Below are positions 33,021-36,737 of a stretch of DNA of 64,000 nucleotides, piece after piece. Position 1 is the first letter of the stretch, and every line of letters starts with the position of its first letter. The notes beneath the pieces are model-generated. The model was not told where the DNA came from and did no database searches. It saw only the letters and a list, made by a program, of their open reading frames with translations. This DNA comes from Bryobacterales bacterium (GTDB lineage Bacteria > Acidobacteriota > Terriglobia > Bryobacterales > UBA6623). The stretch lies in assembly GCA_028819255.1 (NCBI GenBank), contig JAPPMB010000114.1, forward strand, positions 64,998 to 128,997, read 5' to 3'. The position numbers and the translations under genes are program-made.

Positions 33021-33588
33021 GGGTTCAGACCTCGGTTGCAGTGTACCCTACGCGCCGGGGCCATGGCGTGCTGCCATTCGCCCTTCCATGGCTGATTCTT
33101 GTTCTGATCTGTAACCTTGCGCACAATGAGTCAGGGAAGCTTGCAGTGCTCGTCGCTGCTTCTCTACACTTCTCGCACTGTCTGCTAGGTCCGTGCTCTG
33201 CCACTACGGTGACTGTTCCAGGCGGAGCCCTTGCCCGCCGTCGAGGTTCTGCCCTCGTAGGACGAGTGCCGACTACAGGAAGAGGCGCCGCAGCGCGGCT
33301 CGCACAACCCTTGCGGAAATCCCCGCGCGACGGGCCAGCACCTACCACCTATCGGTGAAGACGCCAACCCTTCCCTGGAACGGAGCAATTTCCTCACAGC
33401 CCCTGGACCTCTTTCGCCCGTCCCACAGGGCAACCCAGCGACCCGCGGCGCAGGATCCCCATTTCTTGTAACGCTTCAGATGTCACGTGCCTGACTTCCG
33501 CTATGCTGTGGGCAGGTTCGAGAGTGCTCGCACACTAAGGGGAAATTGCTGTTGTTGGCAATCGACCAAGAAAGCTGAGCAGTTGGAC
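33021..33588. other. Intergenic region upstream of the R-M genes
   Basis: About 570 bp with no credible gene and a visibly less GC-biased, more mixed composition than its surroundings. A TATGCT at 33502-33507 is a possible -10 for the R-M operon, giving a ~90-base leader. An AGTG-N6-CACT element a little downstream could be an operator, but no controller gene is present. Confidence 0.45.
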
Positions 33589-33594
33589 AAGGAG
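33589..33594 (+). promoter_or_regulatory. Strong Shine-Dalgarno of the methylase gene
   Basis: AAGGAG lies 7 bp before the ATG at 33602. It contrasts with the many SD-less, apparently leaderless first genes in this window. Confidence 0.7.
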
Positions 33595-33601
33595 AAAAAG
33601 T

Positions 33602-34486
33602 ATGGCTGAGACGGCCCTGCCGAATGGTATTCCAGTCTCTCCCTATCCGGCTGCCAACGTCGCCTCGGTTGGCCAGCACAGCCCGCTCCGGTACCCCGGC
33701 GGCAAGACGTGGCTCATTCCGCATGTCAAAGCTTGGCTCCGCCGGGTCAGACCGAAGCCCGACCTGCTGCTTGAACCGTTCTGTGGAGGCAGCATCGTAT
33801 CCCTCAGCGCTGTGATCGAAGGCTGGGTCGAGCAGTGCTGCATGTCCGAGCTCGATCGCGACGTTGCTGCGTTCTGGCACGCTGCCCTGCGCCACGGTCC
33901 GGCCTTGGCCGAAAAGATTCTTCGTTTCAATGTTTCCCGGGATGCGGTGAACGCTTTGGTGCGCCAAGCGCCGTGCGACGTCCTTGAGCATGGGTTTCGC
34001 ACGTTGGTCCTGAACCGGACGCGGCGAGGGGGGATCCTGGCACCTGGGGCGGCACTCATCAGGTCGGGGGAAAACGGCAAGGGACTGGCCTCGCGCTGGT
34101 ATCCCCACACGATCGCCAGACGTCTGAACGCGATCAGTGCGCAGGCAGAGCGCATCGGTTTCTTCGAGGGCGACGGAATGACGCTTCTCAAGGCCATGCT
34201 GGGAGCGTCGGGAACGGAGGTCGCCGTATTCGTCGATCCGCCCTACACCGCTGGCGGAAAGAGAGCGGGCAGGCGGCTCTACGCCCATCACGAAATCGAC
34301 CACGGGGGCCTCTTCGCGCTGCTGGACGACAGCTCGGCCCAGTTTCTGATGACGTACGACGCATCTCCGGAAATCGTGGGCCTGATCCGCAAGCATGACT
34401 TCCATGCGGTTCAAGTGGTCATGAAGAACGGACACCACAATCGGATCCCCGAACTGGTCATCACGCCAAGAGCGGTTTTCGATTGA
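33602..34486 (+). CDS. D12-class (Dam-like) adenine-N6 DNA methyltransferase
   Basis: A 294-aa SAM-dependent DNA methylase. N-terminal PLRYPGGKT (28-36) and 'LLLEPFCGGSIVSL' (SAM motif I), then DPPY (212-215, catalytic motif IV) and the D12-type 'LNRTRRGGILAPGA' segment. D12-class enzymes make N6-methyladenine, usually in GATC-like sites, so the target here must contain adenine. Its stop overlaps the TTG start of the restriction gene (TTGA), so the pair is coupled with the protecting enzyme first. Confidence 0.9.
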   Translation: MAETALPNGIPVSPYPAANVASVGQHSPLRYPGGKTWLIPHVKAWLRRVRPKPDLLLEPFCGGSIVSLSAVIEGWVEQCCMSELDRDVAAFWHAALRHGPALAEKILRFNVSRDAVNALVRQAPCDVLEHGFRTLVLNRTRRGGILAPGAALIRSGENGKGLASRWYPHTIARRLNAISAQAERIGFFEGDGMTLLKAMLGASGTEVAVFVDPPYTAGGKRAGRRLYAHHEIDHGGLFALLDDSSAQFLMTYDASPEIVGLIRKHDFHAVQVVMKNGHHNRIPELVITPRAVFD

Positions 34487-35379
34487 GATCTCCGAGGCCC
34501 AGGTACGGCATCGCCGAGTGGTTCGGCGAGCCTTTCAAGGAGATAGCGGCCGATCTTCGCAAGGATCTTGCGATGATCGCCACGCGCTCGGGACGCGAGG
34601 CAGCAGCTAGTCAGCCCAGATTCTGCCCGTTCCAGACTGCTGTGCCATGTCGAAAGCCAGGCGGCGTTTGCTCCATCCGAGCCTACAGCAAAGGGCCAAG
34701 AGGACGGCTTGGAAACCCCGCAGGCGAGCCCGTCATCACCTGCCCCAAGCGCTTTGAGGAGGGGCAGCTACTGGTCCACTGGCTCGCCGATATCGTTGGC
34801 TTCCGCCCGGAAGAAGTGATGATAGCCCGGGAAGTGCCTTTCATGAAGGGTTCGGAGACGGGCAAAGCTGCCGGAATGATTGATTTTGTTGTCGCTCAGC
34901 CGTCCGGCGGAACACTGCCGTGGTACGGGCTTGAAATCCAGGCGGTGTATTTCTCAGGACGAGGCATGGGATCAGAGTTCGACCGCGTACGGCAACATCC
35001 GGACCGTTTGGAGTTCCCTTCGGACGTCCGGCGCCCGGACTGGCGCTCGTCGGGCGCAAAGCGGCTCATGCCGCAACTTCAGATCAAGGTGCCAACGTTG
35101 CGCAGGTGGGGCGCCAAGCTGGCGGTAGCCGTTGACGCCCCGTTCTTCGCCTCGCTGGGGGGCCCGAGTTCGGAGCCCAGCAAGGATCTGGGAGACGGCG
35201 ACATCATCTGGCTCGTGCCCGAGTTGACCGTCGACAAAGAGGGTCGGCATCGACTGGTTCGCGGGCACTGGGAAGTCCTTACGCTTGAGAAATCCAGCGA
35301 CAAGCTCCTCGCGGCGAAGACTGTAAGCCGCAGCGCCTTCGAAGACACTCTGCAAGGTAAGCTCAAGCCCTTGAACTGA
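34483..35379 (+). CDS. NotI-family-like type II restriction endonuclease
   Basis: A 298-aa protein resembling NotI. The N-terminal region has four cysteines (48, 56, 63, 87: FCPF, C, GGVCS, TCPKR) spaced like NotI's iron-Cys4 site, preceded by 'YGIAEWFG' (compare NotI 'FIAEFFG'). A PD-(D/E)XK-like core follows: D134 in GMIDFVV and E151-I-Q153 in GLEIQAV, with Gln in place of Lys exactly as in NotI. It is shorter than NotI (383 aa). Predicted to cut DNA unmodified by the neighbouring methylase. Identification is by eye and should be tested by profile search. Confidence 0.75.
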   Translation: MRSPRPRYGIAEWFGEPFKEIAADLRKDLAMIATRSGREAAASQPRFCPFQTAVPCRKPGGVCSIRAYSKGPRGRLGNPAGEPVITCPKRFEEGQLLVHWLADIVGFRPEEVMIAREVPFMKGSETGKAAGMIDFVVAQPSGGTLPWYGLEIQAVYFSGRGMGSEFDRVRQHPDRLEFPSDVRRPDWRSSGAKRLMPQLQIKVPTLRRWGAKLAVAVDAPFFASLGGPSSEPSKDLGDGDIIWLVPELTVDKEGRHRLVRGHWEVLTLEKSSDKLLAAKTVSRSAFEDTLQGKLKPLN

Positions 35380-35732
35380 TGCGGGCGGAATGATCGAGCG
35401 GGCCATGTCTTCGGCCTTCGGTGGATTCGCCTTGCGATTGAGCCGTGCTCGGCCTGACCCCTAATTCTCGCGGGCGCGCAGGGCAGACATGCGCACTGCG
35501 GGGTCATGCGATTCAACTGAGGCTCCGGCCCGGGCGGGCTTGCCCTTGCGCAACGCCGCTGCTCCGGGTGGTGGCAGTGCCGGGCACCCTGCGAACGGTG
35601 TGCCCGTGCCCTGGATACGGATGACTGCGAACCCCATTCGACACACGGCTGTCGCACGATGCATGACGCTTGGAGCGCCTTCCCGCGAACGCAGCCCACG
35701 CGGAGCAGGGCTGACCTGTGTGAGGACCTTGC
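35380..35732. other. 353-bp intergenic region after the R-M genes
   Basis: Lies between the restriction gene and a convergent secreted-protein gene. Short open frames on both strands have no recognisable content. Nothing like a terminator with a T-run is seen. Confidence 0.4.
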
Positions 35733-36737
35733 TCAGGGCAGATTGGATCCCGTGTGGGGCTTTCCCTCCCGCTCGGCGGCCCTGGCCCCTTCCAGCATCG
35801 TGAACATGCTGTAGTTGCCCTCGTGGCACGCGTACTCGAACATCGGCTGGTCCGTCCTCTTCATCGGGATTGCCGCCGTCCAAGGCCTCTCGAATGACTC
35901 GGCGTCTTCAATCGTGTACTGGTAAAGGACCCGCTCCGGTCCGACGCGGGTGAAGCGCTCGATCAGGCGCATGTTCTTGCCCGAGCCGCGGAAGGAGGTC
36001 TTGTCCGTGAAGTTCGTGGAATCCACAACGAGCGTGTCGCCTTCCCACCGGCCGCGTGCATCGCCGCGCCACTGCCGCATGTGCTCGGGCAGGTGTTCCC
36101 GGCCATCCATGGGCACGATTCGGGCGTCATTGACCATTTCGATCAGCAGGACCGCGTAGCCGGGTGTCTGGAAGATGTGGACGTTGTTGTTGTACGCACT
36201 CGGGGTATAGGGAGGTCCGGCGTTGAATCCCAGAATGCAGCGCTCGGCGACTCCGCGATCCACGGGACTGTGAGGAGGTCGCGCCCTCGCTGCCCGGATC
36301 GCGCCGTAGCGCTCGCGGCCCTTTGCCGTCAGGGCCGGAATCCTTCCATCGCGAGGGGACACGATCAGCGAGGTCCGCCCGTCCTCCAGCAGCTGGTCGC
36401 CAAAGTCCCACCAGAACTGGTTGTAGGCGTTCCGCACATCCTGTTCCGCCGAGATGCCATCCGATGCCCGGCGGTCCTTGTTCCGGCGGCTGAGTTCGCG
36501 CTCCCGGAACGCTTCGGCCTCCTCCCTGCTTGCGAACGCATCCTTGTCCGCCAGGTCTCGCGGCCGCTCCAGCGGTGTGATCGTCCGGAAGTCCCACACT
36601 CCCCGAAGGTCGGGAACTCCCCACGCAGTGCGCGGCGGCGTCCATCTCTCCTGCTCCACGGCTGTAGCGTCGTCGGCCGCCGGCATTTTCGCCGCCAGGA
36701 TCGCGGCCAGGGAAAGTGCGAGCGTCAGGCGATTCAT
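35733..36737 (-). CDS. Secreted protein of unknown function (paralogue A)
   Basis: A 334-aa exported protein (signal LTLALSLAAILAAKMPAA) belonging to a family common in Acidobacteria with no assigned role. Typical text: 'WTPPRTAWGVPDLRGVWDF', 'GRWEGDTLVVDSTNFTD', 'ERVLYQYTIEDAESFERPW' and 'FEYACHEGNYSMFTML'. The C-terminal third is predicted beta-rich. It shares the 'GRWEG-TLVVE-T' and 'E...F.RPW' blocks with the gene 16 bp upstream and has an AGGAGA Shine-Dalgarno, so the two form an operon. Confidence 0.75.
   Translation of the reverse strand: MNRLTLALSLAAILAAKMPAADDATAVEQERWTPPRTAWGVPDLRGVWDFRTITPLERPRDLADKDAFASREEAEAFRERELSRRNKDRRASDGISAEQDVRNAYNQFWWDFGDQLLEDGRTSLIVSPRDGRIPALTAKGRERYGAIRAARARPPHSPVDRGVAERCILGFNAGPPYTPSAYNNNVHIFQTPGYAVLLIEMVNDARIVPMDGREHLPEHMRQWRGDARGRWEGDTLVVDSTNFTDKTSFRGSGKNMRLIERFTRVGPERVLYQYTIEDAESFERPWTAAIPMKRTDQPMFEYACHEGNYSMFTMLEGARAAEREGKPHTGSNLP

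Follow-up and report, generated by a model that had tools for sequence, protein, structure and literature searches.

R.NotI from Nocardia otitidiscaviarum (3bvq, 3c25), present in the PDB as a protein of 383 aa, recognizes GCGGCCGC; because this site has no adenine, we infer that NotI's own methylase (MTase) must be of the cytosine type. In its catalytic core, Gln is found in the position of Lys (review, PMC4081073), and its Cys4 centre is mono-iron (PMC4176176). In RefSeq plasmid records, a 'NotI family restriction endonuclease' is annotated beside a 'DNA adenine methylase'; when known specificities were sought in the literature, the phrase 'NotI family restriction endonuclease' was found in no paper searched, and two methanotroph methylome papers contained nothing on a NotI-family/D12 system. 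The D12-type PADLOC model PD-Lambda-5_B derives from a system which, according to its authors, is a compacted restriction-modification (RM) system combined with abortive infection (PMC9519451). That sponge symbionts exchange RM genes laterally has been reported in general terms (Robbins et al. 2021, PMC8163846).

The window, a stretch of 64,000 nucleotides from a Bryobacterales bacterium, contains an MTase gene followed by a nuclease gene, in tandem on the + strand, where the stop of the former and the start of the latter share 4 bp (TTGA). The features are the following.

33602..34486, + strand: D12-class (Dam-like) DNA adenine MTase, 294 aa, ATG start; presumed protective partner
34483..35379, + strand: NotI-family (PF12183) restriction endonuclease, 298 aa, initiated at TTG; shares 4 bp with the MTase gene
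34624..34743, + strand: codons of C48, C56, C63 and C87; putative DNA-binding element of the metal-Cys4 type, proposed from the analogy to NotI
34882..34941, + strand: codons of the putative catalytic core D134 ... E151-I-Q153
33055..35733, no strand: approximate extent of the insertion with the pair, flanked by a DUF6152 gene and its conserved downstream neighbour

The pair is very probably a complete Type II RM system acquired by horizontal transfer, in which the D12 mark would protect the host and the NotI-family nuclease would cut the unmethylated site.

The nuclease is matched by the Pfam NotI profile (PF12183) with E=5.1e-45 and 154.1 bits, the curated cut-off being 22, so that the profile check proposed by a sequence-only reading of the locus was positive; 52 of 52 aligned sequences match the same profile. 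The protein contains exactly four cysteines (48, 56, 63 and 87), plus D134 and E151-I-Q153. C56, C63, C87, D134, E151 and Q153 are invariant in all 52 aligned sequences, C48 in 51 of them. In profile alignments, C42, C55, C65 and C81 of NotI are aligned with the four cysteines, and NotI D160/E182/Q184 with D134/E151/Q153: the NotI layout, recognized in the sequence-only reading, is therefore confirmed. A further hallmark of this branch is the strongly conserved stretch RRPDWRSS..KRLMPQLQIK. That reading had also stressed that the nuclease is about 85 residues shorter than NotI; the figure holds (298 vs 383 aa), but lengths near 300 aa are ordinary within the family.

The relation to crystallised NotI was evaluated at several levels. 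Profile A1, a broad one made from 12 sequences of the family, retrieves 3bvq with E=1e-11, and hhalign, comparing the family profile with NotI, reports a probability of 97.5% (E=5e-12). A narrower profile (A2), searched against the PDB, found nothing, NotI included; aligned directly with NotI, it covers the cysteine region only, at 78%. A phmmer search of the PDB with the window nuclease did not return 3bvq. PF12183 itself, for all its name, shows no match at E<=0.01 to residues 13-248 of 3bvq. The AlphaFold model of the nuclease is confident (pLDDT 95.6), and Foldseek, run with it against PDB and viral models, gave no match at E<=0.001. NotI, the structure proposed for comparison in the sequence-only reading, is not among the 50 Foldseek matches listed; the best nuclease among them is BamHI (probability 0.6-0.7). 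Nearer to NotI is the nuclease of another locus, L013 (27% identity, E=2e-17), which adjoins a cytosine-5 MTase. As judged from these comparisons, the window nuclease belongs to the Pfam NotI family, in a branch far removed from NotI, and its kinship to NotI is remote, at the profile level only.

The MTase is matched by Pfam D12 (PF02086) with E 1.3e-5 and 25.5 bits (cut-off 22), and by the D12-type models of PADLOC with E values down to 1e-43 (PD-Lambda-5_B). It contains the motifs RYPGGK, EPFCGG and DPPY, the last at position 212; its AlphaFold model (pLDDT 90) matches, by Foldseek, 7m6b, E. coli Dam and DpnM with E from 1e-11 to 1e-16. With a profile score above the cut-off, the DPPY motif and a Dam fold, it belongs to the D12 class of N6-adenine DNA MTases. 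It does not belong to the Dam subfamily TIGR00571, where it scores 25.3 bits against an NCBIfam cut-off of 114.85. Both genes lie at the coordinates given in the sequence-only reading, and the coupling of the nuclease to a D12 adenine-type MTase through the TTGA overlap is confirmed.

The surroundings of the pair were compared with those in related genomes. The nuclease is absent from 10 of 10 genomes of the same genus and from 7 of 7 other genomes of the same family; genomes of the same order yield just two weak partial matches, with E about 2e-4. Two congeners, G300 and G303, have the flanking genes side by side, with alignable flanks 253 bp and 196 bp apart, respectively, versus about 2.8 kb in the window. 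A third congener, G298, aligns likewise, and flank positions in the remaining ones agree, G304 excepted. As the flanks adjoin without the pair in congeners, the window lineage has gained the two genes by an insertion of about 2.6 kb. No terminal repeats or mobile-element ends of the insertion are recognisable: only imperfect two-copy matches of the chance type are found, such as arms of 16 nt, 88% complementary, at 33383 and 35719. With a GC content of 62.1%, the pair is on the low side for the genome, but not extreme (8.5th percentile). No match was found in the phage records searched.

In G304, the same junction contains a different insert of ~5.6 kb, with a gene for a TonB/Oar-like (outer-membrane receptor-like) protein (L195, G304:C1:5244000-5250400); the junction, therefore, may accept insertions repeatedly. 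Elsewhere in G304, downstream of a selB-like gene (L199:4159-5130, G304:C1), a D12 MTase gene is found, 58% identical to the window MTase. No NotI-like nuclease was detected beside it or elsewhere in that genome, and the gene is likely to be an orphan from a separate acquisition.

The existence of such orphan D12 homologues, G304 being an example, suggests a different reading of the window pair: a decayed remnant, with a nuclease that no longer cuts and an MTase serving as an orphan regulator. In the window, however, both reading frames are intact and the nuclease keeps the residues invariant in its family, which makes a remnant very unlikely.

Relatives of the nuclease were sought by scanning one genome per species; at least 478 were found, and the best 80 of these were retained. 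In almost every close relative found, a D12 MTase adjoins the nuclease; among the relatives sampled, this is the partner normally seen. Pairing of D12 MTases with NotI-family nucleases is common and, as the plasmid records show, already annotated; that the adenine MTase would be exceptional, as the sequence-only reading implied, is not supported. By branch, the partner is D12 in most cases, a C5 MTase in L005, L013, L082, L089 and L096-L100, and a PF01555 (N4/N6) MTase in L014 and L015. The C5 MTases of L005, L013, L089 and L096-L100 share a near-identical GGSWRDIP...SDHTKRYGR, in the region of target recognition, while their nucleases diverge strongly. Beside one C5-paired nuclease, a reading frame for a Vsr-like (very short patch repair) endonuclease was noted by eye (L082:1033-1773, - strand).

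Relatives at about 51-62% nuclease identity form, with the window, a clade of 62 rows with an SH-aLRT of 100 (62 loci: L016-L077 except L075, and L087). Its members come from at least 10 phyla, which are intermixed on the nuclease tree; on the MTase tree, too, the clade loci form a group separate from the remaining NotI-family partners. Gene order is constant, MTase then nuclease on one strand, and the 4-bp overlap is found in most members, a recurrence which supports the TTG start assigned to the window nuclease. Within the clade, nuclease and MTase distances are correlated (Mantel r 0.71; the maximum in 2000 permutations is 0.14). Linked and co-inherited restriction endonuclease and MTase genes, as in Type II RM systems, are thus present.

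These data also bear on the hypothesis of a nuclease with a GC-only target like that of NotI, the D12 MTase being an unrelated neighbour or having some other role. The name of the family and the conservation of both Cys4 and D...E-x-Q would fit with it. Throughout the clade, however, the D12 gene adjoins the nuclease gene in an unvarying order and co-diverges with the nuclease, and a branch closer to NotI, that of L013, has a C5 MTase instead. The hypothesis is very improbable, and the MTase is better seen as the presumed protective partner of an RM system. A point of the sequence-only reading, that N6-adenine methylation could give no protection to a GC-only site, is upheld.

That reading had further proposed that the target contains A and differs from that of NotI. 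For one group of relatives, that of L003 (plasmid pEST4011; L002, L003, L092 and L093), partner exchange supports this proposal. L082 and L089, at 85-88% nuclease identity to L003, have a C5 partner, and no D12 homologue was found in the genome searched, some of the genomes compared being incomplete. L092 and L093, with nucleases 94-99% identical to L003, have a D12 partner, and their C5 matches are remote (34-45% identity). L079 and L090, at 63-64% nuclease identity to L003, also have a D12 partner and show no C5 match, some genomes again being incomplete. At 85% identity, the L003-group nucleases most likely cut one common site; since near-identical nucleases are paired with either C5 or D12 MTases, that site would hold both C and A, and should be unlike the GCGGCCGC of NotI. 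For the window's own branch, it is the D12 partner that indicates a site probably containing A.

The recognition site was sought among avoided palindromes of 4, 6 and 8 bp. None was specifically avoided in ~0.64 Mb of clade loci plus window, nor in ~0.73 Mb of the host, compared with 0.40 Mb of a nuclease-free genome of the same order. CTCGAG, CGATCG, GGGCCC and many other palindromes are low in all sets compared. For GTGCAC, GACGTC and CACGTG, low counts are confined to the host and the clade, which, given a single control and many tests, is no evidence for a site.

A modification-dependent nuclease, or one working with the MTase other than by classical Type II restriction, might be suggested by the resemblance of the MTase to PADLOC PD-Lambda-5_B (PMC9519451) and by the putative nature of the nuclease activity, but this is extremely improbable, as the exchange of C5, PF01555 and D12 partners around a constant nuclease family is consistent with protection of the classical Type II kind.

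The mechanism of the Type II RM system would thus be ordinary. The D12 enzyme would put N6-methyladenine on a short, probably palindromic site of the host. The nuclease, probably a dimer, would bind DNA with a contribution of the putative metal-Cys4 element, and its D...E-x-Q active site would cut incoming DNA where the site is unmethylated. The site is probably A-containing and the cassette horizontally mobile.

About half of the clade carries sponge-linked names or sample codes. The codes jk18x, found on 15 of the 62 loci, correspond to Caribbean Ircinia sponges (PMC9531527); CAR, IRC, RHO and APA codes are found on 12 loci, and would correspond, as judged from the initials, to sponge species of Robbins et al. 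(PMC8163846); three loci have sponge-linked organism names. In the window organism's genome 65 ankyrin-repeat matches are found, and 34-60 in its genus; such abundance is only suggestive of a sponge association. It may be speculated that one cassette, with a single specificity for a site containing A and C, has been repeatedly passed among unrelated phyla in the same sponges, generating a shared community mark which favours DNA exchange inside and excludes outside DNA, although this appears doubtful.

The new elements reported here are the ~2.6 kb insertion and the supported clade of MTase-nuclease cassettes from at least 10 phyla; no description of a multi-phylum NotI-family/D12 cassette was found in a literature search. 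The interest of the pair lies in an unexplored specificity, in partner switching and in the distribution across phyla. Should the site contain A, enzymes with specificities other than that of NotI, and possibly rare cutters, would be available from this branch. Nearly identical nucleases with either a C5 or a D12 partner amount to a natural experiment on how a restriction enzyme comes to exchange one protective methylase for another. The cassette, finally, provides a concrete, testable case of RM genes moving laterally between sponge symbionts, a process so far described in general terms (PMC8163846).

In comparison with known systems, the nuclease shares with R.NotI the N-terminal Cys4, the D...E-x-Q core and a KR...Q...K motif, but is remote from it in sequence, about 85 aa shorter, and coupled to an adenine-type MTase, while the NotI site is without adenine. 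The MTase has in common with Dam and DpnM the fold and the motifs RYPGGK, EPFxGG and DPPY, but is only 15-17% identical to them in the structural match, and "Dam-like" is not to be taken as a GATC assignment. The plasmid pairs (pEST4011, Aeromonas, Thermus) also consist of two adjacent genes of the same protein families; in them, however, the nuclease gene comes first and the nuclease is about 40% identical at best. The clade cassettes, carried by MAGs from multiple phyla, feature the same order, mostly the same 4-bp overlap, and nucleases and MTases about 51-68% identical to those of the window, and differ from the window pair in host organism and insertion site.
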